Assembly (NCBI GenBank): GCA_027459745.1
Contig: DAIDHL010000009.1
Span: 1-51,728, forward strand
Length of the DNA: 51,728 nt
Origin: Candidatus Levyibacteriota bacterium
GTDB taxonomy: Bacteria > Patescibacteriota > Microgenomatia > Levybacterales > UBA12049
Direction: 5' to 3'
Shown: piece after piece, positions 1,374 to 50,656 of the stretch
How the letters are laid out: the number at the start of each line of letters is the position of its first letter
Numbering within the stretch: the stretch's first letter is position 1
Program-made: the position numbers and the translations under genes
The notes under the pieces: generated by a model
The model's database searches: none
What the model saw: only the letters and a program-made list of their open reading frames with translations
What the model was told of the DNA's origin: nothing

Positions 1374-1485
1374 AATTGTTTGGATCTCTTTTTATCTTAG
1401 AGATAGGAATGTTCTATGTCAATAAACTTACATTACCTTTAAACAACCACTTCCAAAAAAAAAATATTCATGTTAGACTTTCTTC

Positions 1486-2055
1486 ATGGTTTTATCAGAT
1501 AGAGATATAAAAAAGGCTTTAAATAACAAAACGATCGTAATTGATCCTGCTCCAGACTTAGACAAGCAATTGGGTAGTTGTTCTATTGATCTAAGATTGG
1601 GGAATGTTTTCCGCGTTTTTGAATACAGCAAAAAACCTTTTATTGATCCATCTAAAAAAGATTATAGTAACGAAATTACACGAGAAATTGTGCTAAAAGA
1701 TGGTGAAGAATTTATTATGCAGCCGGGTGATTTTGTCTTGGCCGTGACCTATGAACATTTGACAATTCCTGATCATATGATGGGCAGATTAGAAGGTCGT
1801 TCGTCTCTTGGACGTTTGGGAATAGTCGTACACTCCACTGCTTCAATCTTCGATCCAGGTTGGGATGGGAAATGTGTCTTGGAGTTAGGTAATTTAGGTA
1901 GAATGGCCGTAGCTTTGACGGTAGGGATGCGGATTTGTGCCATGGCTTTTGAACAGCTGTCTAGTCCGGCTGAAGCGCCATATAATAAGAAGAATAATGC
2001 CAAATATGTTATCCAGGAAGGGCCTCAGGAATCAAGAATTGCAGAAGACAAATAA
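1486..2055 (+). CDS. dcd: dCTP deaminase
   Basis: MVLSDRDI start, RLEGRSSLGRLGIVVHSTA and DPGWDGKCVLELGN motifs of the Dcd/dUTPase superfamily, C-terminal SRIAEDK. Confidence 0.9.
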   Translation: MVLSDRDIKKALNNKTIVIDPAPDLDKQLGSCSIDLRLGNVFRVFEYSKKPFIDPSKKDYSNEITREIVLKDGEEFIMQPGDFVLAVTYEHLTIPDHMMGRLEGRSSLGRLGIVVHSTASIFDPGWDGKCVLELGNLGRMAVALTVGMRICAMAFEQLSSPAEAPYNKKNNAKYVIQEGPQESRIAEDK

Positions 2056-2060
2056 TCATC

Positions 2061-2118
2061 TGTCATCCTGAACTTGTTTCAGGATCTCTTTAGATGCTGA
2101 AATTAATTCAGTATGACA
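2061..2118. repeat. Palindromic intergenic repeat (copy A1, short form)
   Basis: TGTCATCCTGAA...TTCAGTATGACA terminal inverted repeat; internal CCTGAAC-TT-GTTTCAGG and CTGAA-ATTAA-TTCAG hairpins. Confidence 0.85.
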
Positions 2119-2126
2119 AAATTATT

Positions 2127-2780
2127 ATGAATAAATATCCTGTTAATTATGAGATTGAATTTGCGCAAAATCCTTACCCAGGTAAATTTGTGGCATTTGA
2201 GGGGATAGATGGCAGTGGTAAAACCACTCAAATTAAGTTAGTAGTGGAAGAACTAAAGAAAATGGGTAAGAAAATTTATTCCACCCAAGAACCGACTGAT
2301 GAGCCGACGGGGAAGTTGATCAGACAAATTTTAAGTGGTGAAATTAAAGTTCCACCGGTGGCGTTACAGTATTTATTTAATGCTGATCGTGCTATACATT
2401 TAGAAAAAATAAAGCAGCTTTTGCAAGATGAATATATAGTCATCACTGATCGTTATTTTTGGTCTTCGGTGGCTTATGCTACAGCTGATATGCAAGCCAA
2501 CACAGACTTATATTTAAGTGTTTATTCCATTTTGTCCTTTTATAATCGTTTTATTGTGCCGGATATAACTGTTTATTTAAATGTAAAACCCGATGTGGCA
2601 GTAAAACGTATAGAAAAAAGCGCAAAGCATAAAGATATTTATGATAAAAAAGAGAAATTGGATTTAATTTATATGTCATATGCAGATTTAATACAGAGGT
2701 TTGCCGAGTTTTTCACCAACATTAATGGTGACCAGGCAGAGGAAAAAGTAACACAGGAAATTCTCGAGAAGATTGTATAG
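2127..2780 (+). CDS. tmk: Thymidylate kinase
   Basis: FVAFEGIDGSGKTTQ P-loop, DRYFWSSVAYA motif. ORF-track start 2094 lies inside repeat A1; 2127 (MNKYPV) preferred. Confidence 0.9.
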   Translation: MNKYPVNYEIEFAQNPYPGKFVAFEGIDGSGKTTQIKLVVEELKKMGKKIYSTQEPTDEPTGKLIRQILSGEIKVPPVALQYLFNADRAIHLEKIKQLLQDEYIVITDRYFWSSVAYATADMQANTDLYLSVYSILSFYNRFIVPDITVYLNVKPDVAVKRIEKSAKHKDIYDKKEKLDLIYMSYADLIQRFAEFFTNINGDQAEEKVTQEILEKIV

Positions 2781-2782
2781 CT

Positions 2783-4960: not shown

Positions 4961-4961
4961 T

Positions 4962-5339
4962 ATGACCATTTATTTCAGTCACTCTAGGAGTTTTGATTAC
5001 AAAAAAGAACTTTATGAGCCGCTGAGAAATTCCGACTTGGCCAAGCAGCATCGTTTTGTGTTTCCACACGAAGAAAGCGATAATCCATTTAGCACCAAAC
5101 AACTTTTGGAATCTAAGGCCTGTGATTTAATCGTGGCAGAAGTTTCTTTTCCCGCCACTGGACAGGGCATAGAATTAGGTTGGGCAGATATTTTACAAAT
5201 TCCCATTGTTTGCATTCACAAAAAAGATGCCCACGTTGCCGAGTCTTTGAAAGTAGTGAGTAAGGAATTTATGGAGTATAAAGACACAAGGGATATGGTT
5301 TTAAGCTTATCTAAAATACTGAATAAGCTGTCATCCTGA
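4962..5339 (+). CDS. Nucleoside 2-deoxyribosyltransferase-like protein
   Basis: DLIVAEVSFPATGQGIELGWADILQIPIVCIHKK resembles the NDT/DUF4406-type fold; the terminal LSS-stop codons lie in repeat A3. Confidence 0.65.
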   Translation: MTIYFSHSRSFDYKKELYEPLRNSDLAKQHRFVFPHEESDNPFSTKQLLESKACDLIVAEVSFPATGQGIELGWADILQIPIVCIHKKDAHVAESLKVVSKEFMEYKDTRDMVLSLSKILNKLSS

Positions 5340-7059: not shown

Positions 7060-7195
7060 TTAGTTAGAAAGTAGAAAGTTGTAATGTCTGTAAAGGGAAG
7101 GTACTTTATAACTTTAAAAACTTCATGAACTTTATATTTTTTTGCCTCTTGAAGATGAGTAAAAAGATGTTTATACTTTGGGTATAATTTTTACG

Positions 7196-8524
7196 ATGAA
7201 GCAATTACTTACTACAGATCCTGAAGTATATGATTTGGTAAAACAAGAAGAAAAGCGTCAGCGCGACGTGCTGGAAATGATCCCCTCAGAAAATTATACC
7301 TCAGGTGCAGTTTTAGAAACTCTGGGTACAGTCTTAAATAACAAATATTCAGAAGGATATCCTAAAAAACGATATTATCAGGGCAATGAAGTGGCAGATG
7401 CGGTTGAGACATTAGCTCAAGAGAGAACAAAAAAATTATTCGGCGTACCCTATGTCAACGTACAACCTCTATCTGGTTCAGTTATGAATCTGGCTGTCTA
7501 TTTTGCCTTATTAGAACCTCTCAAAGATAAAATCATGGGTTTATCGCTAGCCTTCGGTGGTCATTTGACTCATGGACAACCACAATCAGCTACAGGTAAA
7601 TTTTTTCCCTCAGTTTTATACACTCTCGGTAAGGATGAACGCATAGATTTTGCCGCACTAGAGGAGTTGGCAATGAAAGAAAAGCCTAAGATTATAGTCT
7701 GTGGGTTTACAGCTTACCCGAGAATTATTGATTTTAAGCGCTTTGCTAAAATCGCTGACAAAGTTGGAGCATATTTAATGGCTGATATATCACATATTGC
7801 CGGATTAGTAGCTGGTGGAGTACATCCTTCTCCAGTAGACTATGCGCATATTGTGACTACTACTACCCACAAAACACTTCGTGGACCTCGAGGAGCTTTA
7901 ATTATGGTTACACAAAAAGGACTGAATAAAAATCCCGATCTTGGTAAATTAATTGATACTGCTATTATTCCGGGGTTGCAGGGAGGACCACATGATAATC
8001 AGACCGCAGCCATTGCCGTGGCATTGAAAGAAGCGAGTACTGCCAAGTTTAAAAAATACGCACAGCAAATTGTCTTAAATGCCAAGAAGTTGGCTGAAGA
8101 ATTACATAAATATGATTTTAAATTGATCAGTGGAGGCACAGACAATCATTTGTTATTAGTTGATCTGAGTAACAAGCAGGTTAATGGAGCAGTAGCTGCG
8201 TTGGCATTAGAAGCAGCTGGGATTGTTTTAAATAAAAATGGGGTCCCCTTTGATAAAAAACCACCATTTTATCCTTCGGGAATTCGTTTTGGCACACCAG
8301 CTATTACAACGCGTGGTTTGAAGGAGAGAGACATGGTCAAAATTGCGCGTTGGATGAATGCAGCCATAGAAGAAGTTAAGGGGTTTGATTTTCTCACTGA
8401 TGATAAAGCTGAGCGCAAAGCAATGTTTGATGATTACAAGAAGAAGATTGCCAGGAATAAACAGCTCAAAGAGATAGCCAAAGAAGTAAGAGACTTCTGT
8501 CGTAAGTTTCCCATTCCAGTTTAG
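7196..8524 (+). CDS. glyA: Serine hydroxymethyltransferase
   Basis: MIPSENYTS, YSEGYPKKRYYQGNE, HIVTTTTHKTLRGPRGALI (PLP lysine), GGPHDNQTAAIA. Confidence 0.96.
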   Translation: MKQLLTTDPEVYDLVKQEEKRQRDVLEMIPSENYTSGAVLETLGTVLNNKYSEGYPKKRYYQGNEVADAVETLAQERTKKLFGVPYVNVQPLSGSVMNLAVYFALLEPLKDKIMGLSLAFGGHLTHGQPQSATGKFFPSVLYTLGKDERIDFAALEELAMKEKPKIIVCGFTAYPRIIDFKRFAKIADKVGAYLMADISHIAGLVAGGVHPSPVDYAHIVTTTTHKTLRGPRGALIMVTQKGLNKNPDLGKLIDTAIIPGLQGGPHDNQTAAIAVALKEASTAKFKKYAQQIVLNAKKLAEELHKYDFKLISGGTDNHLLLVDLSNKQVNGAVAALALEAAGIVLNKNGVPFDKKPPFYPSGIRFGTPAITTRGLKERDMVKIARWMNAAIEEVKGFDFLTDDKAERKAMFDDYKKKIARNKQLKEIAKEVRDFCRKFPIPV

Positions 8525-14396: not shown

Positions 14397-14456
14397 GGCT
14401 TAATGATTAAGTTTATTTTATTGATTAAACTCTCAAATAGTGTATAGTATGTGTGC

Positions 14457-15218
14457 ATGTTTGTTGAGGATATTTTTCATCGAGAGCAAATCCGCTATTC
14501 TTTGCAGCAGGGAATATATTTTCTGCCAGTATTGTCTCCTGATCAGGGTTTGCAGATTGGCAAAACTCTTTTAACCAATTTAGCTGACAACAAAACAGCA
14601 GTTTTTCTCTCTGGGGGCAAAACACCTGCTCCTATGTATCAGTTACTAGCGCAAGAAGAGAAATTCGCCCCCGGGGTGGTCGGCATGGTGGATGAACGTT
14701 ATGGAGAAAAGTTTCATGCTCAGAGCAATGAACTAATGATACAAAATACAGGCTTGCTGCGTTATTTAACGATGAGGGGAATAATGTTCCATCCGATTTT
14801 ACAAGGCGAGGAAGGTATTATTGAAACAACTAGTGCTTATGATGCTACGTTGAGGAATATTTTTAATCAATACCAAACCTTGGTCGCTCTGATGGGTTTG
14901 GGAAGTGATGGGCATACCGCTGGCTTATTACCACAAAGTTTTAAGTTTCAAATCACTAATTCTAACTCGACAAAATACGATTATGTTAGCGCTTACGAAT
15001 ATCCGGATGGGTTATATAAACAACGTATTAGCATGACCTTCTTAGGCTTGTCCATGCTTGATTTATATATTATCTTGGCTTTTGGTGAAGATAAAAAAGA
15101 GGCAATTCTTAAAATGTTTGACAGTGGATCGGAAGAGGAAATTCCAGCTAGATTTTACTTAGATGCTAAGAATAAGAAGAAGACGGTATTAATTACTGAT
15201 CAGGAACTTTTTTCCTAA
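14457..15218 (+). CDS. pgl: 6-phosphogluconolactonase
   Basis: FLSGGKTPAPMYQLLA, VDERYG, LMGLGSDGHTAGLLP. Confidence 0.85.
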   Translation: MFVEDIFHREQIRYSLQQGIYFLPVLSPDQGLQIGKTLLTNLADNKTAVFLSGGKTPAPMYQLLAQEEKFAPGVVGMVDERYGEKFHAQSNELMIQNTGLLRYLTMRGIMFHPILQGEEGIIETTSAYDATLRNIFNQYQTLVALMGLGSDGHTAGLLPQSFKFQITNSNSTKYDYVSAYEYPDGLYKQRISMTFLGLSMLDLYIILAFGEDKKEAILKMFDSGSEEEIPARFYLDAKNKKKTVLITDQELFS

Positions 15219-19559: not shown

Positions 19560-20419
19560 TACTGTCTTTGGGGGACATCCGTGTATAGGCTACCTTCTTC
19601 AATTGTAATTGATATTACAACATCTTCTTTATTGCTATCTTTAAGGGCTTCAACTGCATTTGGATTTAATCCACTTGGAATTGTAAGCATGTGTGAGGGA
19701 TAAATCGTTGTATAAGGTTTAAACTTATACTGCCTTACGATGCTTACAACCCGATCCGAATATTTGGATTGTTCAGTGATCAAAGCTAAGGCAGTATCTT
19801 CATCTAAACCTCCCTTTAATACAATACTTCTTTTCTTTTTGTAAGGATTTTGTTCTGTTAAATTTTGATTAATGGACGTAGTATTTGCTGTTTCAACAGA
19901 ATGAAGAAAAAATTTTACTTTTTTAGCGGATTTTAATTTAGATGTAAGATAATTTAGCACTCTTTTTTTACTATATCCTAATTTTTTGAGTAAAGTTATA
20001 TAGCTTGCGTTCACCACTTCTTCACCTGAGTTTGCGTCAACAATAGTACTTATACTAGGTTGTTCACTATATCGTTTTAACAATTGCCGAAGCTGTGATT
20101 CTTTTAGATCGGTTGTATTTACAATTAAGCCCTTAGAGAGAATTGTAGAGGAACTTATATGATCACTAGCCTGATAAATTCTCAAATGCTTTGCATGTTT
20201 ATATGCAAACTTTATATCTCTATAAATAGAAAGTTTTTCAGCAAAGTTAGTGGTACTTGCAAAATCGCCAAGGGCTTTTGATAAATCAAAAGACACTTTC
20301 CCGAAATGAAAGGAAGCTCTCACTTCTGGAGTTCGTGCAAAACTACGATAAAGATGTTTTATTTGCGAGCTATTTAAGCTTTGAGGGTTAATAATTCCCG
20401 ATGGTTCTCCTTCAATCAT
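19556..20419 (-). CDS. Hypothetical protein
   Basis: 287-aa ORF, convergent 4-nt overlap with gnd, TATAAT 8 nt upstream of ATG on the minus strand. Confidence 0.65.
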   Translation of the reverse strand: MIEGEPSGIINPQSLNSSQIKHLYRSFARTPEVRASFHFGKVSFDLSKALGDFASTTNFAEKLSIYRDIKFAYKHAKHLRIYQASDHISSSTILSKGLIVNTTDLKESQLRQLLKRYSEQPSISTIVDANSGEEVVNASYITLLKKLGYSKKRVLNYLTSKLKSAKKVKFFLHSVETANTTSINQNLTEQNPYKKKRSIVLKGGLDEDTALALITEQSKYSDRVVSIVRQYKFKPYTTIYPSHMLTIPSGLNPNAVEALKDSNKEDVVISITIEEGSLYTDVPQRQY

Positions 20420-20466
20420 AGCTTCAAATTATACCAAAATGTTTAGCTTCATGGTATACTCGTTAT

Positions 20467-22176
20467 ATGCTTTACAGTAAACTGTTTGGTAAGACCATTA
20501 AGGAAGCACCGAAAGATGCAAGTTTAATCTCCCACAAACTGCTTTATCAAGGTGGTTTTGTTCGTGAAAGCACAGCTGGCCGTTATTATTTCCTTCCATT
20601 GGGTCTTAGAGTGCATCAGAAGATACAAAAAATAATCAAAGAAGAAATGGATAAGGCTGGAGCACAGGAAATCGTCACTCCAGTTATGCATCCTAAATAT
20701 CTGTGGAAAGAAACCAATCGTACCACATCAGTGGGATTTGAATTAATGTCCATTAAAGATCGTAGCGAAATGGAGTTCGTTTTAGGTGGAACAGCCGAAG
20801 AAATGATGGTTGATCTAGTGCGTAAGTTCCAGCTGAGTTACAAGGATTTACCTTTCAATATTTACCAGTTTTCTACCAAGTTTCGTGACGAATTGAGAGC
20901 GCGTGGAGGTTTATTACGTGCCAGAGAATTCATGATGAAAGATGCTTATTCCTTTCATGCGACTGAGGAAGACTTTAAACAGGAATATGAAAATATGAAA
21001 CAGACTTATACCCGGATATATGAACGATTAGGTTTGAAAACGCTGGTTGTCGAATCTGATAATGGATATATCGGAGGAGAATATTGTCACGAATTTATCG
21101 TTGAGTCAGAAGCCGGTGAAAGCAAGTTTTTAACTACTGAAGATGGTAGCTATTCAGCACATGAAGATGTGGCTGTATTTGAAGTTGATAATAAAAATTT
21201 AGAAGAAGAAGAAAAGTCGTTAAAAGAAGTTGAAGCCGTGCGCGGGACGACAATGGAAGATGGAGTTAAATTGCACAATATGCCTTTGTGGCAACAAATA
21301 AAAGATGTGTTGTTTGTGGATGAACAGGGTAGGTTTATCTTAGCAATTATACGTGGTGATTATGATGTCAACGAAACAAAGTTGTTGCATTTGATCAAAG
21401 CTTATAACCTTCGCCATGCTACCGAGGAGGAAATTAGAAACAAAATCCATTCAGAACCCGGTTTTATTTCACCAGTCAAGATTAAAGAAGGTTTAGAGGA
21501 TGACTTGGAATTAATAATTGTGGCAGACAAGTCTTTGCGCTCAATTAAAAATGCTTATGGTGGTGCGAATAAAAAGCATCGTGATTTATTCAATATGAAT
21601 ATTGATCGGGATTATACAGCAGACATTGAAGGAGATATTGCCTTGGCTAAAGAAGGATATATAGCTAAAAACGGACAGCAATTGGTAGCTCGCAAAGGAA
21701 TCGAGGTAGGCAATATTTTCCAGTTAGGTTTCCACTATTCTTCCAAAATGACAGGAGCCACATTTACCGATGCCAGGGGAGAGCAAAAGCCTTACTATAT
21801 GGGTTGTTATGGCATTGGTATTGGTCGCACATTACAAACGATTGTTGAGTTAGGTCATGACGCTAAAGGTATTATTTGGCCTGCTGATATTGCGCCGTTT
21901 AAAGTTCAGTTAATAGGGTTGAATTTAGATAATGAAGAAGTTAAGAGACAGGCGGATGAGGTTTATCAAAAGCTTACACAAGCCGGAGTCGAAGTTTTAT
22001 TCGATGATCGTACAACAGCAGGACCAGGTGAAAAGTTTGCAGATGCAGATTTAATTGGTTTACCAGTGCGTTTAGTAGTCAGTTTAAAGTCAAACGGACA
22101 GATCGAGCTGAAACAAAGAAGAGAAAAAGAAACTAAACTTATGGAACTCTCAGAAATAATATCTTTCCTTCACTAA
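20467..22176 (+). CDS. proS: Prolyl-tRNA synthetase
   Basis: GRYYFLPLGLRVHQKIQKIIKEEMDKAGAQEIVTPVMHP, LRARGGLLRAREFMMKDAYSFH, INS-like editing domain, YYMGCYGIGIGR. Confidence 0.96.
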   Translation: MLYSKLFGKTIKEAPKDASLISHKLLYQGGFVRESTAGRYYFLPLGLRVHQKIQKIIKEEMDKAGAQEIVTPVMHPKYLWKETNRTTSVGFELMSIKDRSEMEFVLGGTAEEMMVDLVRKFQLSYKDLPFNIYQFSTKFRDELRARGGLLRAREFMMKDAYSFHATEEDFKQEYENMKQTYTRIYERLGLKTLVVESDNGYIGGEYCHEFIVESEAGESKFLTTEDGSYSAHEDVAVFEVDNKNLEEEEKSLKEVEAVRGTTMEDGVKLHNMPLWQQIKDVLFVDEQGRFILAIIRGDYDVNETKLLHLIKAYNLRHATEEEIRNKIHSEPGFISPVKIKEGLEDDLELIIVADKSLRSIKNAYGGANKKHRDLFNMNIDRDYTADIEGDIALAKEGYIAKNGQQLVARKGIEVGNIFQLGFHYSSKMTGATFTDARGEQKPYYMGCYGIGIGRTLQTIVELGHDAKGIIWPADIAPFKVQLIGLNLDNEEVKRQADEVYQKLTQAGVEVLFDDRTTAGPGEKFADADLIGLPVRLVVSLKSNGQIELKQRREKETKLMELSEIISFLH

Positions 22177-24537: not shown

Positions 24538-24633
24538 GTATTAATTATAAGATATTAGAGGCTATAAATTACAACTTAACATTCTTAATGTATTTTTGCA
24601 TAATACATAGTACTTGATACATAATACTAACCT

Positions 24634-26328
24634 ATGGTTTTTTATCGCAAATATCGTCCACAAATAATTGATGATTTAGATAATACCCAGATAAGAGAAA
24701 AAATTTCTGCATTACTAGCCAATGCTATCAGTAAAAAGAACGATATTCCGCATGCTTTTTTGTTCACAGGACCGAAAGGGTTAGGTAAAACCTCCACTGC
24801 CAGATTGATTGCTAAAGCAGTTAATTGCGAACGAAATGCCTTCTCGAAAGTGAACGATGAGCAAAAAGTAGACGTTAAGAATTCTAAATTAAACACTGAA
24901 AATGAAGGTGCTAAATTGGAGATTTCCACCTCAAACCTACATCTTCCAATCTCCAATATTGAGCCTTGTAATATGTGTGGCCAATGTATAGCCATCACTA
25001 ACGGCAACAATTTGGACGTTATGGAAATTGATGCAGCCTCTAACCGAGGTATTGACGAAATCCGTGAACTAAAAGAAAAAATTAATCTTTCGCCAGTGCA
25101 ATCCCGCAAGAAAATATATATTATCGATGAAGTGCACATGCTGACTACAGAGGCTTTTAATGCTTTATTAAAGACATTAGAAGAACCTCCCGCACACGCT
25201 TTATTCATGCTGTGCACTACTGAAGAGCACAAAATTCCCTCAACTATTATTTCCCGCTGTTTTCATCTACAGTTTGCTTCTGCTACTCCAGACGAGTTAA
25301 AGCGTTCTCTACAAAGGATTATCGTTGGAGAAAAAATTAAAATTGAACCATTAGCTTTGGAGATGATTGCTAAATATGCTGATGGTGGCTTTCGTGATGG
25401 GACGAAATTGTTAGAGGAAGCTGTAGCCTTGTGCGGTGATGATGGGATAACAGTTGACTTAATCGAGAATAAATTACATATTGGCGGAATAGCTAAATCT
25501 GCTAAAGAATTTCTAGCACTGCTCAAGCAAGGTAAAACTAAATCGGCATTAGATTTTATAGAGAGGTTAGTGCAGGAGAAAGTTGATTTAGTTTACTTTA
25601 CACAAGGGTTGCTGAGCTTATTGCATGAACAGTTTTTAATCATTTTAGAAGCAAAAGAGATAACTGGTGATAATTTAACCCTGTCAGAAATTAAGGATTT
25701 AGTTAGTTTATTCAGTCAGGCTTACAGGGAGCTTAAATCAGCTTATTTGCCACAATTACCTTTGGAGATAGCGGTTGTTGAATGGGAGGATAGAAATAAA
25801 AAAGTAGGACAGGCAAGTTCAGAAATAAACCATAAGCACGATAAGAAAATATCCTTACGAGAAGAAGTCGGGGTTGAAGAACAGCCAGGAGTTAAGCAAG
25901 TACTCAAACATGAAGATGAGATTACTGTGTCACATTTGCGTAAACAAGTAGGTGCAATGGCCAAGATTAAGGCATTGTATGGAGAAGATAGTGTTGCCAA
26001 GCCCAAACCAGTTGAAGAAAACAATATTACAACACATTCGGTAAGTCTTTTGCATTTTTCTGTCCAGGATGAAATGACACCTGAATGGTTGGATTTGTTT
26101 TGGAAAAGTATTATTTCTGAGATGAAGAATTATAATCATACAATTGCAGGTGTTTTACGTAGTTGTAAAATAAAAGAATTTGATCGCAAGACTTTAACTA
26201 TAGAAGCAGCATATCAGTTTCATAAGGATAAGTTAGGAGAAGCAAAGACAATGACTAATTTAGAAGAAATATGTAAGGGTTTACTGGGTGGTCCTGTGGT
26301 AGTGAATGTAGTACTGCGGGATAGTTAG
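24634..26328 (+). CDS. dnaX: DNA polymerase III subunit gamma/tau
   Basis: FLFTGPKGLGKTSTARLIAKAVNC, CNMCGQCIAITNGNNLDVMEIDAASNRGIDEIREL, IIDEVHMLTTEAFNALLKTLEEPPAH. Confidence 0.95.
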   Translation: MVFYRKYRPQIIDDLDNTQIREKISALLANAISKKNDIPHAFLFTGPKGLGKTSTARLIAKAVNCERNAFSKVNDEQKVDVKNSKLNTENEGAKLEISTSNLHLPISNIEPCNMCGQCIAITNGNNLDVMEIDAASNRGIDEIRELKEKINLSPVQSRKKIYIIDEVHMLTTEAFNALLKTLEEPPAHALFMLCTTEEHKIPSTIISRCFHLQFASATPDELKRSLQRIIVGEKIKIEPLALEMIAKYADGGFRDGTKLLEEAVALCGDDGITVDLIENKLHIGGIAKSAKEFLALLKQGKTKSALDFIERLVQEKVDLVYFTQGLLSLLHEQFLIILEAKEITGDNLTLSEIKDLVSLFSQAYRELKSAYLPQLPLEIAVVEWEDRNKKVGQASSEINHKHDKKISLREEVGVEEQPGVKQVLKHEDEITVSHLRKQVGAMAKIKALYGEDSVAKPKPVEENNITTHSVSLLHFSVQDEMTPEWLDLFWKSIISEMKNYNHTIAGVLRSCKIKEFDRKTLTIEAAYQFHKDKLGEAKTMTNLEEICKGLLGGPVVVNVVLRDS

Positions 26329-26697: not shown

Positions 26698-26759
26698 AAA
26701 AACTGCAGCCCTAGTCTTATAGTATAGCTATTATTCCTCTTTTTTGCTATAATCTCTTA

Positions 26760-27314
26760 ATGAGTAGAAATGAACGTGGATCTGTATATGGTTCAGATTG
26801 GCTAAACGTTAATAGAGTACTACCGGAAACTCAAATAACATTTACCCCTGAGCAAAAGATATATATTGATGAATTAAGAGCTCATAAGAAAACTTTTGAA
26901 GGATATTTCATAAATGCAGTTGTAGATAATACAGACGTTTCACGAGGTATAAGAGATTCTGTTAGAGATTTTGTAAATAGAGGCATGACTACAAAATCAG
27001 CTATGGTGAGAATGAACGAAAAAGAAGTGATTAGTATAGAAGATATACAATCGTCTGCAATGTTGACAGAACTAAATTTACCATCTGAAATATTTTCTCC
27101 ATTAAATAAACTTAATATTAGTGTACCAGACGCCTACATACTTATGGCAAATGACCTAATGACTATTGGTTTAAATCGTAAAAATATATTCAAGCTTCAA
27201 GAAAGATTATATGCATATCTTAGTGAACTAGCGCAATGGACGGCTAAAAATGTTAATTACACCTCTGCTTATATGCGTAATTTACCAGATTTTAGGCGTA
27301 GACGAGGATATTGA
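26760..27314 (+). CDS. Hypothetical protein
   Basis: 184-aa ORF with TGC-TATAAT-N6-ATG promoter/start. Confidence 0.65.
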   Translation: MSRNERGSVYGSDWLNVNRVLPETQITFTPEQKIYIDELRAHKKTFEGYFINAVVDNTDVSRGIRDSVRDFVNRGMTTKSAMVRMNEKEVISIEDIQSSAMLTELNLPSEIFSPLNKLNISVPDAYILMANDLMTIGLNRKNIFKLQERLYAYLSELAQWTAKNVNYTSAYMRNLPDFRRRRGY

Positions 27315-27345
27315 TTCTTCAATTGTATAACGTTACAATGTCAGA

Positions 27346-28272
27346 ATGAAGATTGTTGCCGGTAATTCCAATAAGGTTTTAGCCGAGGTAATAGCCAAAC
27401 AATTGGGTTTAAAACTGACTCCGCTGGAGATTTTTATTTTCCCCGATGGTGAGCGACGTATCAGAGTTTTGGAAAATGTGTTAGAGCAGGATTGTATTGT
27501 GGTTCAGCCCACTAGCCCCGATGTGGACACAAATTATATTGAGTTATTTCTGATTGTAGATGCACTCAAACGTAATGGTGCACGTGACATTACGGTTATT
27601 ATGCCCTATATGGGTTACCAGCGGCAGGATCATCAGTTCCGTGATGGAGAGTGTGTGTCGCTGGAGGTTATGATTAAAGCAGTTGAATCATTGGGGGCCG
27701 ATAAAATAATCACTTTTGATATGCATTCTATTAGAATTCCCTCGCTTTTTCATATTCCTATCAAGCATTTGTCCGCCATTCCGCTGTTTGCCGAAACTAT
27801 TCGTAAAAATGGTTGGAAAAATGATGATACTATTTTAATCTCACCAGATATGGGTGGAATTAACAGAATTAAAAAATTATCTGAAGCTTTGGATGATATG
27901 CCTTATGCCAATGTGGTCAAAAATCGTGATTTGTCCACGGGTAAAGTAGTAGCAGCTAATATCGATTGTGAATCAAGTGCCTGGAAAAAGAAAACCTTTG
28001 AAGGGAAGAGATTAATTTTGGTTGACGATATGATCTCCAGCGGACATACAATTGATGAAGCTGGAAAGTTATTAAAAAAGCTGGATGCTGGTGAAATGTA
28101 TACTTTTGTGACGCATGCTATATTCTCCTCAGAAGCGCCAACGATTTTACAAACGTCCCTGATGGAAAACATCTATGTTACAGATAGTGTATTTGTGCCT
28201 AAAGAAAAACAATTTACCAAGTTGAAGATAGTCTCAATAGCCAAAGAAGTTGCTAAAGAGTTTAGTAAGTGA
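27346..28272 (+). CDS. prs: Ribose-phosphate pyrophosphokinase
   Basis: FPDGERRIRV, VMPYMGYQRQDHQFRDGE, ITFDMHS, LILVDDMISSGHTIDEAGKLL. Confidence 0.95.
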   Translation: MKIVAGNSNKVLAEVIAKQLGLKLTPLEIFIFPDGERRIRVLENVLEQDCIVVQPTSPDVDTNYIELFLIVDALKRNGARDITVIMPYMGYQRQDHQFRDGECVSLEVMIKAVESLGADKIITFDMHSIRIPSLFHIPIKHLSAIPLFAETIRKNGWKNDDTILISPDMGGINRIKKLSEALDDMPYANVVKNRDLSTGKVVAANIDCESSAWKKKTFEGKRLILVDDMISSGHTIDEAGKLLKKLDAGEMYTFVTHAIFSSEAPTILQTSLMENIYVTDSVFVPKEKQFTKLKIVSIAKEVAKEFSK

Positions 28273-29003: not shown

Positions 29004-29078
29004 TATGTCCACCGTACCGTTTTTCTTCTAGACAGCTGAAATTGACTGTGTTATCAAACTAGAGTATAATTTGCGCTT

Positions 29079-29777
29079 ATGTTGCCAGAAAAATTGAATC
29101 ATATAAAGAGTCGAGTTAAAAAGGGCTACGAAGTAGCGAATGAAAGGCTAGGTATTATAGCGGGTTTGGGCTATATGGCTGCATCTGGTTATTCTCTTGC
29201 TAAAAAAGAAGATTTAGCAGCAGGTATCTGCCTCGGTAGTGCAGTTTCTTTAACCGCCTTGGATGGATATGTTGGTGCAAGAAGAGAAAGAAGAAGAAGT
29301 GAGATAGCACATACGCAAGGAGAGATAAAGGGATTAGAAACAGCTGAAACGTATATGCAAAAAGCATACAATACAGGATTTGAAAATGGGAGACAGCAAA
29401 TTTTAGGCGTGCTAGAAGAAGGAGTAGGTATGATAATTGTGGGACCAAAATCAGGAAAATTTACAGAAGAAGTGGCTAATAATATTCCAGTCTATACCTC
29501 GTTGGATGGAAAAACCAAAATCTCTTCGACAGACGATTTAATTGAATCATTAGGAGATCCGTTTAACGTGGCCAGACAGGTGATGTTGATAATGCATCAC
29601 TCAACAAAGAGACGTTTAAACATCAGAGAGATCGAAATATTAAGAAGAGCGAATAGTGCATTAAATCAAATACCCGGTTCAGAAGAAATGTTCTGTGAAC
29701 AAGGACAGGATGTAATAGGAGATATGAGGCAAGTGATAGAAGACTATGAGAAAAATCTTCCTCCAGCTTCAAATTGA
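29079..29777 (+). CDS. Hypothetical protein with N-terminal hydrophobic segments
   Basis: GIIAGLGYMAASGYSLAKKEDLAAGICLGSAVSLTALDGYVG; promoter TTGACT-N17-TATAAT-N8-ATG. Confidence 0.65.
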   Translation: MLPEKLNHIKSRVKKGYEVANERLGIIAGLGYMAASGYSLAKKEDLAAGICLGSAVSLTALDGYVGARRERRRSEIAHTQGEIKGLETAETYMQKAYNTGFENGRQQILGVLEEGVGMIIVGPKSGKFTEEVANNIPVYTSLDGKTKISSTDDLIESLGDPFNVARQVMLIMHHSTKRRLNIREIEILRRANSALNQIPGSEEMFCEQGQDVIGDMRQVIEDYEKNLPPASN

Positions 29778-29785: not shown

Positions 29786-30544
29786 TTAAATTTCTAATTC
29801 TGCTTGGAGGCCTAAGTGATCGGAGAGAGTTTCTGCAATAACCTCAAATTTATTTACTTTTATATCATCAGTTATATAGATATAATCAACCGCTATACCC
29901 GGTGGAAAGATCTCAACCGCGCGATGAGTTTGGGCATTAAGCGTATTGGTTATTTTATGCTCAGAGGTTAAATTACGCGCCAGAGTATCAAAGTTTTTGA
30001 TCAGTTGGGTATCAGGTCGTACATTAAAATCACCAGTCAAAATAAAAGGAGGCTGAACTTGCTTTAAATAGTCAACCAAAATATTGGCTTGATCAATCTT
30101 ATATGGCTCATCAAGTGGAGTTTTGCCCCAGGCTAAATGGGCATTAATAATATTAAAAGTTTTATTATCTCGTCTCAGTTTGAGGTATAAAGCATTGCGT
30201 GGGAGATCTTCAAAACTATCTTTCGGCAGCTCTTCATAATTATCAAATGGTTTCAGCTAAATAACATTTTGTTTTCTAAGAGAGAATTCGGGTTTGAAGA
30301 GAGTGGCATTACCAAAGTATGACTTACCATCAGAAGACCTCATCGTCTGAGTCAGGACACCTTGATAATCGAGTTGTTGTTTCAACTCTGTAAATACATC
30401 CAAATTATGATTGTAGCGATTGAGATTGCCGCTAGAAGCCTCCTGTAAATTTATGATGTCAAAATCGTTTTGGTGCAAAAAGTTGACAATTTTAGTTAAA
30501 AAACGTCCATTTTCACAATTGAGCTGCAAAAGTTTGATTAACAC
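29786..30544 (-). pseudogene. Endonuclease/exonuclease/phosphatase family gene interrupted by an in-frame TAG
   Basis: ORFs 30257-30544 and 29786-30079 are in the same frame; the region between translates continuously (LKPFDNYEELPKDSFEDLPRNALYLKLRRDNKTFNIINAHLAWGKTPLDEPYKIDQANILVDYLKQ). LQLNCENGRF, NLQE, NAHLAW, TGDFNVRPD and DHLGLQ motifs. Confidence 0.8.
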
Positions 30545-30619
30545 TTTTGCATTATGTCAAAACGAAGTTTGTTAGGCAAATTTACTCAGAATAAATAATA
30601 TGTTATAGTTTGAGACAAG

Positions 30620-32442: not shown

Positions 32443-32480
32443 TCTTTTACAATTTGTTCATTTGCAGGTATAATGCATGC

Positions 32481-32711
32481 ATGACGTCACCAGATTCTTT
32501 CAGACCAGTTTTTAAAATATTAAGGCCAATTAAAATTGTCTTCGATACACTACCTGATGGCCTTAAGTGTGTGGTCGCTGATAATCCAAATACAGGTAAA
32601 CCAGCTAATTTGGCTGATGAAATATTGTTTAGACAACATAATAGACTAGAAGGTGGTAATGTTTCTAGAAGGATTCCGGATACTTGGGAAGTTTTTAAGG
32701 GAGGTAAGTAG
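32481..32711 (+). CDS. Hypothetical small protein
   Basis: TTTACA-N17-TATAAT-N6-ATG supports start 32481 rather than 32454. Confidence 0.6.
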   Translation: MTSPDSFRPVFKILRPIKIVFDTLPDGLKCVVADNPNTGKPANLADEILFRQHNRLEGGNVSRRIPDTWEVFKGGK

Positions 32712-41764: not shown

Positions 41765-42250
41765 CAAGAACTTTTGCAGCTGTTTTTTAATCTCTTTTTC
41801 TCCATTTTGTGTGTTATCTAATATAATATGAGGAATATTTGGTTTATCAAAATGCTCACACATAATTTTGGCATAGTCTCTTTCAATAGGAAACTCCTTG
41901 CGCTGGGCTAATCTTTCTTCACGAATTGACTCAGGGGTGGTGATTAACAAAAATTTAATGTTTGGCAAGGTGGAGAGCAATTTTAGCCGATGTTTCTCGT
42001 AAATAAATGTTTGACTGATGACTAAATTTGTATGAAGTTTTGCTAGTTGTTTAATTTTATCTATGAGTCTGTCTAAAAAATCATCAACCATAGAATCTGG
42101 AATATCCAGTTTTTGCTCTAAAGCCTTTCTCATAACAGGGGGCAGCACCTGATCTCCATCATAGTAATGATAGCCGAAATCTTTACCCAGAATTTTTCCT
42201 ACATATGATTTTCCTGTACCTGGAAAGCCGAAACAGATTAAAAGAGACAT
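41708..42250 (-). CDS. P-loop kinase-like NTPase
   Basis: LLICFGFPGTGKSYVGKILGKDFGYHYYDGDQV; ATG 42250 preferred because upstream ATG 42259 overlaps a -10 box. Confidence 0.75.
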   Translation of the reverse strand: MSLLICFGFPGTGKSYVGKILGKDFGYHYYDGDQVLPPVMRKALEQKLDIPDSMVDDFLDRLIDKIKQLAKLHTNLVISQTFIYEKHRLKLLSTLPNIKFLLITTPESIREERLAQRKEFPIERDYAKIMCEHFDKPNIPHIILDNTQNGEKEIKKQLQKFLLNLNSGEKIAANSHYHTD

Positions 42251-42322
42251 CGCATGCATTATATCAGCATCTTCTTACAAAGATGAGGTATGATGGAATA
42301 GTTATAAGTATAAATATTTGAT

Positions 42323-42862: not shown

Positions 42863-42946
42863 CTTTCTTTCTGATCTGTAGAAAAATTTTTTAAAACAGT
42901 ATATTTTAGCCTTTGCTTTGATGACATTTATTGCTATAATTTTGAA

Positions 42947-43408
42947 ATGGATCGAGGGAAAATTGTTTTATACATTGCGCTACTACAGTCTGTAATAGCG
43001 GTTGTAGGTAGTTTCTTCTTTAGTAATGTGGCTAATTTCGCTCCTTGTATCTTGTGTTGGTTCCAGCGTATTTGTATGGATCCCTTAGTCTTAATTCTAG
43101 CAGCAGGTATTCTACTGAAAGACAAAAAAGTGGTTTGGTATGCTTTGCCTTTAGCAATTATAGGTTGGCTGGTTGCTGTTTATCACAACTTATTGCAGTA
43201 CAAAATTATTTCCGAAGCGGTTTCTCCATGTAGTAACAGCGGAGTATCGTGCACTAATTTATATGTAAACTATTTTGGTTTTATCACCATTCCATTATTA
43301 TCATTAGTTGCATTTACGGTCATCATAGTTTGTTTGGTTCTTTATTATTACTTCACCAAACCATCTGCAGTTAAGATGGTGAAAGTCTCCGCGAAAAAGA
43401 AGGCTTAA
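42947..43408 (+). CDS. Disulfide bond formation protein DsbB/BdbC family
   Basis: Four TM segments, CILCWFQRICMDPLVLIL, periplasmic Cys pair CSNSGVSC. Confidence 0.85.
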   Translation: MDRGKIVLYIALLQSVIAVVGSFFFSNVANFAPCILCWFQRICMDPLVLILAAGILLKDKKVVWYALPLAIIGWLVAVYHNLLQYKIISEAVSPCSNSGVSCTNLYVNYFGFITIPLLSLVAFTVIIVCLVLYYYFTKPSAVKMVKVSAKKKA

Positions 43409-43409: not shown

Positions 43410-43694
43410 CTACAGATTTATTTTGGGCGTTTGTCTTACCCTTAGTGCAGAGATTGGGCGATAATCTGGATCTTGGCTTACATCTCCTGGAAAAGTTCCT
43501 ATGATACGTCTGGGTAAAAGATCTAAGTTTCCATCTAAATAAGCGCGGTAGGCTCGGTGATTACCGTCGGTTAGAGCGTGGTTACCACTGTCGTCTCGTA
43601 GTACCCATACTGGTACAGTAGTGTCAGCTTTTTCTATACCGGGGCCATAAACCACATTTTCTTGAGTGTATAAGGGGGGGTGAAATTTTTCCAT
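43410..43694 (-). CDS. ParB/Srx-like small protein (tentative)
   Basis: HALTDGNHRAYRAYLDGN resembles the ParB-N core 'DGxHR' motif; TGC-TATACT-N6-ATG start. Confidence 0.5.
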   Translation of the reverse strand: MEKFHPPLYTQENVVYGPGIEKADTTVPVWVLRDDSGNHALTDGNHRAYRAYLDGNLDLLPRRIIGTFPGDVSQDPDYRPISALRVRQTPKINL

Positions 43695-43732
43695 CGGAGA
43701 AGTATAGCAAAGAGGGATACTACAGTCAAAAT

Positions 43733-44803: not shown

Positions 44804-44888
44804 AGGTCAGTCTAGTATAAAGTATTTAATATAAAGTATCTAGTCTTTAGAATTTTCGTGAGAGAAGATTCTATGCTAAACTAAAAAA

Positions 44889-45614
44889 ATGGAGGATAGA
44901 GGGACAACTGAAGTAAATAGATTGACAGAAGAACAGGAAAAAATCTTACAACTGTTGCGTTATGCTTTTCAAATTAGCCAAGGAGATGCTGGTACTCAGT
45001 CTACAATCTTACGTTGGTTATCTATGACAAAGCACTTAGACTTCAAAACTCTTGTTGAAGTCCCAGCAGATGCGGTAATGCGCTATATAATGCCTCCTAA
45101 ACAACATAAAGATGGTGCAAATCCTGCAGAAGAATACACTTACACAATGAGTAATATAAAAGACGTGTTAATTCCTTCATTGGATAAAAAGGTTGAGATA
45201 AGCTGTTTAGAACGAGATATCCTCATCGGTATGTTAAAGAAGGATATTGATTTTCAAGAGAAAGAGAGAGAAAATCGTTTAACTCAAAATAGTACTGATA
45301 GTACCGAAGCCATTGTGCCTGATTCATTATCGGATCCACATGGAAGTTATGTACGAAAGTATTTGATTTCAGGGTCTCCCATTATTGAATCTCATTCTAG
45401 TGCAAGGCAAGTTTATGATGAACTTTTTAGTAGACTGAGAGGAGAGTTAGAGAACCAACATGTAAGGTTTTTTGATACTAATGCAGTGACACAAGAGAAT
45501 CGTTTCACTCAAGAAAGTATAATTCTGTTAAGTTTACGCAAACTAGCTGATAAATGGCAGATTAATCATCCTCGCCAAACTTTTTTTCCCTCATATAAAG
45601 AGCTGAAGGTATAG
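44889..45614 (+). CDS. Hypothetical protein
   Basis: 241-aa ORF; TGC-TAAACT-N6-ATG start. Confidence 0.65.
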   Translation: MEDRGTTEVNRLTEEQEKILQLLRYAFQISQGDAGTQSTILRWLSMTKHLDFKTLVEVPADAVMRYIMPPKQHKDGANPAEEYTYTMSNIKDVLIPSLDKKVEISCLERDILIGMLKKDIDFQEKERENRLTQNSTDSTEAIVPDSLSDPHGSYVRKYLISGSPIIESHSSARQVYDELFSRLRGELENQHVRFFDTNAVTQENRFTQESIILLSLRKLADKWQINHPRQTFFPSYKELKV

Positions 45615-46381: not shown

Positions 46382-46403
46382 TCACCTTGAGGAAAGGAGG
46401 TGA
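46382..46403 (+). promoter_or_regulatory. Possible SD-sequestering hairpin
   Basis: TCACCT (46382-46387) complementary to AGGTGA (46398-46403), 10-nt loop, covering part of SD AAAGGAGGTG. Confidence 0.45.
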
Positions 46404-46411
46404 AAATAATA

Positions 46412-48130
46412 ATGAAGAAAATTTTAGCTTTTTTCGCGTCTTTAGGTTTGTTATTGGGTCTTACTGTCGCTCCAGCCTTCGCGGCTGTTAGCCATGTCTA
46501 TGTAAATGCAGGAAGATTAGATAATACATCTTCTACTCCTTCAGTTGTCGCTGCAGATGGGTTGAATAAATGGTTTATGTACAATGATTCAAATGATACT
46601 GTAGATAATACACTTGGATCATTTGTTACAGATGCCTCATCACCTAATGGAGTAGGAAGTATAGAATTTACTCTAGGGGCTTCTCCAATGGATAGAAAGA
46701 ATATCGCTACATATCAGTTCTCTGGTATAACGCTTTCTTCTATCACTGCGATGGGCTTTACTGCTTATTCGCATAGTGGAGTTGCTGGTGCAAATGAATC
46801 ACCATTTTTAAACTTCAATGTTGATTTGAGTGGTTCCAATACTTGGCAGAAAAGACTAGTTTACGTTCCTAGTGCAAATATGGCGTCAGTTCCTCAAGAT
46901 AAATGGAACACTTTTGACGCAATAGATGGTGGAAATGCACTTTGGACATGGTCTGGATATTACGGAAATGGCAACAAATGGCCAGATAACGTTACGACAG
47001 AATATAGAACATGGAATAACATATTAAGTTCGTTCCCAAATGCGCGTATCTTACCATCTGATCCATGGTTGGGTGTTCGCGTTGGAGAACCAGGACCGAC
47101 TAACTACACAGCTGACGTAGCGTCATTTACTCTAGGTACCTCCGCGGGTACAACGGAGTATGACTTTGCACCATATCCAAATGTTAACGTAACAATTGTT
47201 AAATATTTGGATGGATCAATGGCAACGGCTAGCTCAGCCAGTAATGCGTCATTCCCAATGGTATCTAGTTGGATGGCAGATAATCTTGGGTCAGGATCAG
47301 GGAGTTACACCCTGGGTCCAACAGGATATAACAATGCCAATCCATATGAAGCTACCACTTCTGATATGACTGCAGGTGCTAGTTATAAAACAAATGAAGT
47401 AACCAACGACGTCAACAATACTTCAAATGTTTTGCCTATCGATGGTACATGTCAACCTGGCATGACTCAATTGGTGGGATATACTACCGGTGATTCATTA
47501 TCAGCGGCTCAGGGAGCAGAGAAGACAGCTACAGCGCCAAGCTTTACAAACTTAACTGCAAATGAGTATGTAATAATTTGGAACAAGACCTGTCCAAATG
47601 CGACTCCTACACCGACTATGACACCAACTCCAACTCCAGTTGGGCCACCGACTTATTTTGCACAATGTAGGGATAATGGATGGAAAACATTCAACAATCC
47701 AACATTCAAAAACCAAGGTCGTTGTATCGACTATGTAGAAGATCATCTTGGTCGTGTAGAAGGTAATATCAGATATACAGCATATAGCTTGAACAGACGA
47801 GCTGATTTTGAAGTACGAAATACTGGTAAATCAGCCATGTCAGCTATGGGTATGTTCTGGTACACCGATGCCAATCATGCTCGATATCAAGTATTAGTGA
47901 GTGACTTGAAAGTATCTGGCAAGATGGCTTGGTTTGCAGGGAAAGTAATCCATGCGAGCAATCCTACGTGGGTTGGTCAGTGGCTAATAGTCAAAGTGTC
48001 AAAGAATTCTCCAAGTCAGATTTGGGGAAGCTTTACAAATCAGACTACAGCTGAAAATGATGTTATGAATATGACATCACCAGCTGATGGACCGTTTAAT
48101 ATTACGGGTGGAAATTTAAATGTTCGTTAA
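46412..48130 (+). CDS. Secreted protein with PT linker and Cys-containing C-terminal domain
   Basis: Signal peptide MKKILAFFASLGLLLGLTVAPAFAA; TPTPTMTPTPTPVGPP linker; CRDNGWKTFNNPTFKNQGRCIDYV motif. Confidence 0.85.
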   Translation: MKKILAFFASLGLLLGLTVAPAFAAVSHVYVNAGRLDNTSSTPSVVAADGLNKWFMYNDSNDTVDNTLGSFVTDASSPNGVGSIEFTLGASPMDRKNIATYQFSGITLSSITAMGFTAYSHSGVAGANESPFLNFNVDLSGSNTWQKRLVYVPSANMASVPQDKWNTFDAIDGGNALWTWSGYYGNGNKWPDNVTTEYRTWNNILSSFPNARILPSDPWLGVRVGEPGPTNYTADVASFTLGTSAGTTEYDFAPYPNVNVTIVKYLDGSMATASSASNASFPMVSSWMADNLGSGSGSYTLGPTGYNNANPYEATTSDMTAGASYKTNEVTNDVNNTSNVLPIDGTCQPGMTQLVGYTTGDSLSAAQGAEKTATAPSFTNLTANEYVIIWNKTCPNATPTPTMTPTPTPVGPPTYFAQCRDNGWKTFNNPTFKNQGRCIDYVEDHLGRVEGNIRYTAYSLNRRADFEVRNTGKSAMSAMGMFWYTDANHARYQVLVSDLKVSGKMAWFAGKVIHASNPTWVGQWLIVKVSKNSPSQIWGSFTNQTTAENDVMNMTSPADGPFNITGGNLNVR

Positions 48131-48154
48131 GTTCATTTAAATCCACAAATTTAA

Positions 48155-48193
48155 AATAGTCCTGCATTTCTTAAATGTGGGACTATTTTTTTT
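48155..48193 (+). terminator. Rho-independent terminator
   Basis: AATAGTCCTGCATTT-CTT-AAATGTGGGACTATT (15-bp stem with two G-U pairs) followed by a T run. Confidence 0.9.
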
Positions 48194-48386
48194 GATTTAA
48201 TTCGAAGTTATTCATATCTGAGAGCATTGAGCGCTGATATCTTCAGAAGAAATAAGATTTGAAAAATTTGACCACAAGTAGGCAGTACATTAAAAAGGCA
48301 AAAAAGCAACGACTAAACCTCAGACCTAAATATCTTTTAGGGGAAATTTTATTGAACTCAGCACAGTCTTATAGTATAATGTATAC

Positions 48387-49307
48387 ATGGAAAAGGATCT
48401 ACACAGAAGAGGAATTATGCCTGCGAATGCAGATTCAGTTAGGGTTCCACCAGAAAATCAGGGAGAATTAACTCCGGGAGTTCCTTTGGTGCTAAATGAT
48501 ATATTCATGGATCACGAATCGAGAAGGCCAGAAAAAGTAATAGAGGGAATAGCCTCTAAAGCTGGCATGGATTTTACAGAGCTTCTTGAAGCCATGTATC
48601 AGGCCAATATGTCAACCTATGATATGGGGAATTTTTTTAGAGTTTCAAGTACTACCATTCATAAGTGGATGATAAATAGAGGTATTGAGCTTCGTCCGGT
48701 AGGAGGTGTTAAGGGTATAAAACAAAGTCCTCAGGCACGAGCTAAAATATCAGTCGGACAAAAAAATAACTGGGGACTGAATAGAGAAAGACGTGTTAAA
48801 TTATCTACAAATCCCAGTATCAAAGCTAGACAATCAGAAGCTCAGAAGTCGTATACAAAAATGAATCCGGAATTAGTAGCACAAGCTCGAAAGAAAGGCG
48901 GCAAAACAAGATCCCAAAACCGTCATGAGGCTCTCGTAAAGTTATTTGGTGGAGAACCCAATGAGGTTTTAAGAAAATTATATGTTGATGATAATTTATC
49001 CGCACAGGATATTGCTGATAAATACCACCTAAATATCCATACTGTTGAATCCATGCTCAGGGGTATAAAGAAAACCGGACGTGGAGAGAAGGCTAATTTG
49101 AAAACTGACAAAAAAATTATTGTTATTTCAAGTACTTCGATTGCCCAACTTGATAATACATCACAATCAGTATTAACACTACGCTATTTGAGTGCTAAAC
49201 CTATGACACTAGCTGCCGTGGGAAGACATTTAAACCTTAGTCGTCAAAGAGTGCATCAGATCGAAGAAAAAGCAATTCAAAGGTTAAGAGATCAAGCAAA
49301 GCTATAA
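48387..49307 (+). CDS. DNA-binding protein with internal HTH and C-terminal sigma-70 region-4-like domain
   Basis: LTLRYLSAKPMTLAAVGRHLNLSRQRVHQIEEKAIQRLR; central SPQARAKISVGQKNNWG and NRHEALV; YDMGNFFRVSSTTIHKWMINRGI. Confidence 0.7.
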   Translation: MEKDLHRRGIMPANADSVRVPPENQGELTPGVPLVLNDIFMDHESRRPEKVIEGIASKAGMDFTELLEAMYQANMSTYDMGNFFRVSSTTIHKWMINRGIELRPVGGVKGIKQSPQARAKISVGQKNNWGLNRERRVKLSTNPSIKARQSEAQKSYTKMNPELVAQARKKGGKTRSQNRHEALVKLFGGEPNEVLRKLYVDDNLSAQDIADKYHLNIHTVESMLRGIKKTGRGEKANLKTDKKIIVISSTSIAQLDNTSQSVLTLRYLSAKPMTLAAVGRHLNLSRQRVHQIEEKAIQRLRDQAKL

Positions 49308-49519
49308 AGCATATTCCTTAATTAATATATTTTATCGGGGAAAGAATGAGGGAGAGAATTTGTATTATTCTTTTAAAATATTTAATTGTTTTCAAATTTG
49401 TGGTTAGGTGTATTTATGAATCATTATTAGTTATTCGATAAGTTTTTGATCGTCCATAATCCTATACTGAAGAAATTGTTAAGCTATGTCAATGTGCTCA
49501 AAGGGTATATAATACTAGG

Positions 49520-50656
49520 ATGTTAGAGCTAAAAAAGAAATTACGCATTTTGCCTGTACACGTAATCAACCCCCGTCTTGAACCAGAAAAAGCCATTAAT
49601 ATTGGTGAAGAGCTGGAGTCGTTGATAGCCACGTTGGGGGCGGAGGTTCCAGATAGAATTATTCAAAAGCTTGATCAGCCCAATGGAGCGACTTATATTG
49701 GCAAAGGCAAAGTAGAAGAAGTGGCCGCTAAAGTCGTGGAGAGAAATATTGACGTGGTAGTTTTAAACTCGATGGTAAAACCTCGTCAAGTGCATGCTCT
49801 GAAAGAACAATTGCAAAAAGTAAAGCCAGACATTGAAGTGTGGGATAGAGTGGATTTGATTTTACAAATTTTTGATTTACATGCAACTACTCAGGAAGCA
49901 AAATTACAAATTGAATTAGCATGCATGAATTATATGGGTCCGCGTATTTATGGCATGGGTTTTATTATGTCTCGTCAGGGTGGAGGAGTAGGCACTAGAG
50001 GTGTGGGAGAAACAAATACGGAGTTAATGAAACGTCATTGGCGCGATCAGAAAAAGAAAGTGCTTGAACAACTGGATAAAATTGCCCAAAGTCGAGAGCG
50101 ACAGTTAGATATGCGTAAAAGAGCTGGATTTAAAACCGTTTCCATAGTTGGTTATACCAATGCTGGTAAAAGTTCTTTATTTAATATTCTTACAGGTAAA
50201 CATAAGCTTACGAAGAATGTATTATTTGCGACTTTGGATAGTAGTGTGGGCAAAATTTATATCGAAGAATTGCATTCCGAAGTACTGATTACCGACACTA
50301 TTGGTTTTATCCGTGACTTACCGCCTCTTTTGATTAGTGCATTTAAATCTACCTTACTTGAATCAGTACACGCCGATGTCTTGTTACACGTTATTGACGT
50401 GTCTGATCCGGAAATGGAGACAAAAATTCAGATAGTGAATGATATTTTGCTTGATATAGGTAGAAATATGGACAATGTGGTATATGTATTTAATAAAGTT
50501 GACTTAGTTAATAATCTATCTAAAACAGAACTGCTGGACAAATATGCCAATTTCTCACCCTTTTTCATCTCGGTTAAAAATGGGGAAGGCGTAGAAAAGG
50601 TGAAAGAATGTATAAAAGAGCATTTAGCACCAGAGTTTAAACTTCCTAACGAATAG
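49520..50656 (+). CDS. hflX: GTPase HflX
   Basis: GATYIGKGKVEEV, MSRQGGGVGTRGVGETNTE, VSIVGYTNAGKSSLFN, ITDTIGFIRDLPPLLISAFKSTL. Confidence 0.95.
   Translation: MLELKKKLRILPVHVINPRLEPEKAINIGEELESLIATLGAEVPDRIIQKLDQPNGATYIGKGKVEEVAAKVVERNIDVVVLNSMVKPRQVHALKEQLQKVKPDIEVWDRVDLILQIFDLHATTQEAKLQIELACMNYMGPRIYGMGFIMSRQGGGVGTRGVGETNTELMKRHWRDQKKKVLEQLDKIAQSRERQLDMRKRAGFKTVSIVGYTNAGKSSLFNILTGKHKLTKNVLFATLDSSVGKIYIEELHSEVLITDTIGFIRDLPPLLISAFKSTLLESVHADVLLHVIDVSDPEMETKIQIVNDILLDIGRNMDNVVYVFNKVDLVNNLSKTELLDKYANFSPFFISVKNGEGVEKVKECIKEHLAPEFKLPNE

Follow-up and report, generated by a model that had tools for sequence, protein, structure and literature searches.

Many genes in a 51,728-base stretch of DNA (hereafter the window) are preceded by a sigma-70-like -10 hexamer that ends only six to eight nucleotides (nt) before the start codon. 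Where do the transcripts of these genes begin, and is there any room for a leader? The window is contig 22 of a 22-contig, 1.375-Mb Microgenomates metagenome-assembled genome (MAG) that is 97% complete. Its ProS protein shares 86% and 76% identity with those of two "Ca. Levyibacteriota" MAGs, followed by Daviesbacteria and Roizmanbacteria, and the genome was therefore placed in the Microgenomates group of the Candidate Phyla Radiation (CPR; Patescibacteria). An earlier note on this DNA had read the pattern as widespread leaderless transcription. Our analysis supports this reading through a -35 element in register at 17 nt, an extended -10, a pyrimidine at -1 and conservation in orthologues. 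We consider it very probable, judging from the sequence, that leaderless or near-leaderless transcription is abundant and accounts for about a quarter of the transcript-first genes in this genome.

Spacing, anatomy and conservation of the -10 box

Statistics for the source genome were taken from 661 kb that includes the window (~48% of the genome; 35% GC). Genes were called by a script from codon usage and start-codon type, and upstream sequence was not used, in order to keep the spacing test non-circular. They were divided into divergent genes (gap >40 nt), same-strand genes with a gap >60 nt, same-strand genes with a gap of 21-60 nt, and operon-internal genes (≤20 nt from the upstream gene). 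A -10 box was defined as TATAAT with at most one mismatch, with expectations from dinucleotide shuffles. Boxes ending exactly 6 nt before the start codon (N6) were found in 34 of 170 divergent genes against 4.6 expected (z 13.9), in 19 of 165 genes with the larger same-strand gap (3.4 expected) and in 17 of 80 with the smaller one (2.3 expected), whereas operon-internal genes gave no sharp peak (5/145 versus 2.6 expected). The z values of the N6 peak were 8-14 across the three independent transcript-first classes, and the N7 and N8 spacings were likewise raised. This genome-wide comparison with shuffles and operon-internal genes, proposed in the earlier note, places the N6 peak in first genes and not in internal ones.

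The peak was also seen without any gene caller. Exact TATAATN6ATG occurs at 88 sites in the whole genome, compared with ~30 expected from N12-21 spacings, and the ATG opens an open reading frame (ORF) of at least 80 amino acids (aa) at 40 of 54 N6 sites (74%), at 62% of N7 and 43% of N8 sites, and at only 17% (56/325) of sites with N12-30. A secondary excess of -10 boxes was present at N11 in first genes (24 versus a background of 7.3), and 19 of these 24 boxes do not overlap an N6/7 box.

The unselected flanks of the 70 N6 genes carry TG at -15/-14 (G in 61%), TTGA at -35 to -32 and a pyrimidine at -1 in 79%. Among the 126 N6-8 genes, the most frequent spacer between a TTGACA-like element (at most two mismatches) and the -10 box is 17 nt (36 genes), with 16 genes at a spacer of 16 and mostly 2-9 genes at each other length. 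Unseeded two-motif expectation-maximization (EM) on 337 transcript-first genes of the genome recovered GnTATAATa and TTgACA and no Shine-Dalgarno (SD) motif, while the same code returned aAGGAG in Geobacillus and AGGAG in the CPR genome G159. On small samples from other genomes EM mostly failed to reach a meaningful motif, so those genomes were judged by spacing counts. The N6 boxes are sigma-70-type promoters, with -35 and TGn in register. At sigma-70 promoters transcription starts ~6 nt after the -10 hexamer, so that at an N6 box +1 would fall on the A of the ATG.

Conservation was examined in four other Microgenomates genomes through reciprocal best hits at 25-90% protein identity. Among N6-8 genes, the start codon was conserved in 26 of 29 orthologue cases, although some called starts differ between orthologues, and an N6-8 box was kept in 18 of the 26. 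The corresponding figures were 10/54 for orthologues of other first genes and 3/25 for those of internal genes, and a box at N16-18 was found in none of the 26 start-conserved orthologues. Because upstream DNA is mostly unalignable at these distances, it is the spacing itself that has been kept. For proS, Levy-, Gottesman- and Shapirobacteria have an N6 box, several other Microgenomates have one at N7-N9, and two Daviesbacteria have an SD in its place.

SD sequences are scarce in this genome. A strict SD word stands before 3% of first and 8% of internal genes; counted identically, Geobacillus has 32% and 29%. Looser SD tetramers (-18 to -4) are depleted before N6-8 genes (4%; control 6%), and occur before 12% of other first genes (control 8%) and 23% of internal genes (control 12%), compared with 68-76% in Geobacillus. 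The earlier note had suggested that two initiation classes coexist, one of them with strong SDs and longer leaders. A few strong SD genes do exist, such as the gene at 46412, but the picture is too simple: they number 13 among 417 first genes, and the majority of transcript-first genes lack both an N6-8 box and an SD. Relatives at the family, order and class levels have 16S rRNA with an intact anti-SD CACCTCCTTTCT at its end; a search of the contigs of the MAG itself found no 16S. The genome encodes IF3 (infC at C16:43065) and a protein with four S1 domains (C3:15449-16414). With the anti-SD intact in relatives, these two proteins encoded and SD words rare, SD initiation appears possible yet little used. 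The fold energy of the first 45 nt did not differ between the predicted leaderless genes and other first genes.

Sites in the window

The eleven N6 and six N7-N8 cases proposed for the window were all re-read in the sequence, and the hexamers and spacings were as given. They are listed below, with any further source of evidence in brackets, followed by a contrasting SD gene.

1468..1488, plus strand: weak -10 TAGACT, N6 and ATG of 1486, dCTP deaminase-like, PF22769 (Pfam)
20455..20469, plus strand: -10 TATACT, N6 and ATG of proS, 20467 (orthologue comparison)
26748..26762, plus strand: extended -10 TGCTATAAT, N6 and ATG of 26760
27334..27348, plus strand: -10 TACAAT, N6 and ATG of prs, 27346 (Pfam)
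30542..30556, minus strand: -10 CATAAT, N6 and GTG of 30544, a 95-aa ORF with a weak Exo_endo_phos match (Pfam)
32469..32483, plus strand: -10 TATAAT, N6 and ATG of 32481
42935..42949, plus strand: extended -10 TGCTATAAT, N6 and ATG of a DsbB family gene, 42947 (Pfam)
43692..43706, minus strand: extended -10 TGCTATACT, N6 and ATG of 43694
44877..44891, plus strand: weak -10 TAAACT, N6 and ATG of 44889
48375..48389, plus strand: -10 TATAAT, N6 and ATG of 48387, protein with sigma-70 region 4 (Pfam)
49508..49522, plus strand: -10 TATAAT, N6 and ATG of an hflX-like GTPase gene, 49520 (Pfam)
7183..7198, plus strand: -10 TATAAT, N7 and ATG of glyA, 7196 (SHMT by Pfam)
14443..14459, plus strand: -10 TATAGT, N8 and ATG of a pgl-like gene, 14457
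20417..20433, minus strand: -10 TATAAT, N8 and ATG of gene 20419, divergent from proS across 47 nt
24620..24636, plus strand: -10 CATAAT, N8 and ATG of dnaX, 24634
29065..29081, plus strand: TTGACT-N17-TATAAT, N8 and ATG of 29079
42248..42263, minus strand: -10 TATAAT, N7 and ATG of 42250
46390..46414, plus strand: strong SD AAAGGAGGTGA before the ATG of 46412, with no N6 box

Boxes two bases off consensus (TAGACT at 1486 and TAAACT at 44889) are weak when taken singly. The minus-strand gene 42250 has a second in-frame ATG 9 nt upstream, at 42259. The labels rpsB, YbaB, DsbB, SHMT, Prs-like, ProS and HflX-like GTPase agree with Pfam, and a domain search identified the ORF at 24154 as YbeY. Divergent starts lie only 47 nt apart at 20417-20469 in the window and 61 nt apart at a second site in the same genome (L112:3357-3419); in both pairs a separate -10 box lies 6-8 nt from each start, with hardly any room for a leader.

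Several other features of the window were observed. The intergenic words TGTCATCCTGAACTTGTTTCAGGATCT and CCCCAAGGGGACTAGCTACA...TGTAGCG recur at 2061-2103, 2783-2825, 2828-2878, 5322-5341 and 5418-5468 and are possibly a small dispersed repeat. The minus-strand region 330-1366 consists of low-complexity repeats of CCACCACC-type words, including a second repeat tract at 361-444; its minus-strand reading would be rich in glycine and is perhaps a surface protein. An ORF at 2925-3458 resembles by eye the nearby dCTP deaminase-like gene, which spans 1486-2055 (Pfam).

Proposed mechanism and alternative explanations

The anatomy and spacing of the promoters, their restriction to first genes, the lack of SD and the conservation are all observed features; the exact +1 and the route of translation from a 5'-terminal AUG would follow from the mechanism that we propose. 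Sigma-70-type promoters (TTGACA, a 17-nt spacer, often TGn, and TATAAT) would drive about a quarter of the transcript-first genes. With the -10 hexamer ending 6 (or 7-8) nt before the start codon, RNA polymerase would start at the A of the ATG or 1-2 nt earlier, and the resulting leaderless or near-leaderless mRNA would leave no room for an SD. The 5'-terminal AUG may then be recognised by the 70S ribosome, or by a 30S subunit with initiator tRNA pre-bound. A few genes would use SD leaders, and operon-internal genes probably depend on translational coupling and unstructured starts.

Several points weigh against this interpretation. The predicted +1 follows from promoter geometry, and since sigma-70 start choice shifts by 1-2 nt, many cases may have leaders of 1-2 nt; the N11 excess would give leaders of 4-5 nt. 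The simple start-calling script misplaces some start codons, and 291 of the 417 first genes have no clear N6-8 box. In addition, the anti-SD (CCUCC) was read only in relatives, as the MAG itself has no 16S contig.

The strongest alternative accepts that the promoters are real but places the start 2-6 nt further upstream, or lets it slip, so that leaders of 1-5 nt would support 'short-leader' initiation. The N7-N8 cases, the N11 boxes (most of them not overlapping an N6/7 box) and genome G121 of another CPR family, which peaks at N7-8, are in its favour. However, the sharpest peak lies exactly at N6 with a pyrimidine at -1, as expected if +1 is the A of the ATG, and we regard this alternative as possible but distinctly the less likely.

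It is very unlikely that the true starts lie downstream and that ordinary leadered genes have had an upstream ATG misread as their start. Single starts are indeed uncertain, as with 42250/42259 and the called starts that differ between orthologues. Nevertheless, the homologous start is kept in 26 of 29 cases, the N6-8 box follows it, the N6 ATGs open long ORFs, and SD enrichment is absent. We give still less credence to the idea that the AT-rich word aids translation, as a binding site for S1 or an unfolding element, and is not a promoter. A bias towards U and A near -10 has been considered for genes without an SD (PMC5397173), but the box is accompanied by TTGACA at 17 nt and by TGn, and it is missing before operon-internal genes, which need translation too; the register of the -35 largely refutes the idea. 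Chance scattering of TATAAT-like words before starts in an AT-rich genome is scarcely credible and was refuted by the spacing test: although the sample is 35% GC and single weak boxes (1486, 44889) could be accidental, there is no peak in dinucleotide shuffles, spacing-matched controls, internal genes or Geobacillus.

Distribution and comparison with known systems

The spread of the leaderless-type signal was measured as exact TATAATN6ATG, with N12-21 spacings as the control. A reversed pattern was dropped as sole control: it made Geobacillus seem enriched (29 versus 9), an enrichment that disappears in spacing-matched counts, and the N12-21 control was adopted for this reason. As pattern counts rather than annotated genes, the phylum-wide figures are 2.8-fold over 32 genomes of the same class (>1.5-fold in 30 of them) and 2.1-fold in the rest of the phylum (a systematic sample of every fifth of 380 genomes). 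Ratios for named lineages, worked out by hand from the counts, were roughly 2- to 4-fold in Roizman-, Gottesman-, Davies-, Collier- and Shapirobacteria, about 1 in Uhrbacteria, Magasanikbacteria and one Parcubacterium, about 2-3 in Saganbacteria and Margulisbacteria, and about 1 or below in Geobacillus, Alkalihalophilus and Cetobacterium. Families f73 and f64, like Uhrbacteria, look negative. The N6 signal thus recurs in most of the class and in many other Patescibacteria and is absent in Geobacillus.

Two genomes from elsewhere in the CPR were looked at individually. G159 (family f22, another class) has 124 exact TATAATN6ATG sites in the whole genome versus ~16 expected; in a 106-kb sample an ORF of at least 80 aa begins at every one of the 17 such sites, TG stands before most of the boxes, and an SD precedes 37-48% of its genes. 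It is a true and very strong dual-mode genome, with promoter-type and SD signals together. In G121 (family f31), the box-to-ATG spacing peaks at N7-8 and not N6, and 8 of 8 N7 sites open ORFs, which suggests a lineage-specific offset of the transcription start site (TSS) or a 1-2 nt leader.

A literature search returned no report of leaderless genes in CPR, although most subscription journals and all preprints were outside the search, so that absence is not established. What we describe is a known bacterial initiation strategy in a lineage for which no report was found in the literature searched. There is perhaps an even chance that leaderless initiation is major and old in Microgenomates and several other CPR classes, that the promoter is the commonest recognisable start signal, that Microgenomates make only marginal use of SD although the anti-SD is intact, and that CPR may be among the largest bacterial groups with an archaeal-like use of leaderless mRNA. 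CPR make up a very large share of bacterial diversity, and their genes are known almost wholly from sequence. If a quarter of transcripts are indeed leaderless, gene starts derived from SD models would be suspect, promoters could be read straight from MAGs by anchoring at start codons, and CPR would offer a test ground for 5'-terminal AUG initiation by ribosomes that are without several proteins and factors.

The closest parallel is Mycobacterium tuberculosis, where 26% of the genes with a primary TSS are leaderless; ribosomal proteins are not represented among them, while 7 of the 14 tRNA synthetases that have a primary TSS are (PMC3898074). The two systems share the proportion of about a quarter, a start at the start codon (mapped there, predicted here) and the coexistence of SD genes, and in our small sample the predicted leaderless set likewise includes proS and argS and no ribosomal protein. 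Unlike M. tuberculosis, the present genome has low GC, a full TATAAT, a detectable -35 and much scarcer SD, and is known from its sequence alone. Leaderless genes have been widely predicted in Actinobacteria and Deinococcus-Thermus (Zheng et al. 2011, PMC3160421), and the TA-led genes of Deinococcus-Thermus, Aquificae and others resemble ours in having TANNNT/TATAAT ~12 nt upstream of the start, read there as leaderless. The present set differs in coming from a CPR class (a text search of Zheng et al. for TM7 gave no match) and in showing conservation at the level of orthologues. The GeneMarkS-2 survey predicted leaderless transcription in 21.6% of bacterial species, as quoted in PMC9581028; its genomes resemble ours in combining promoter-type and SD-type upstream signals and differ in that the SD class is marginal here even though relatives have an intact anti-SD. 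Some CPR, namely Absconditabacteria, Campbellbacteria and Wolfebacteria, are SD-scarce through loss of CCUCC (PMC10783764). Our genome shares their weak SD use, whereas the relatives that we examined have kept their anti-SD, and here the promoter signal for leaderless transcription is seen directly.

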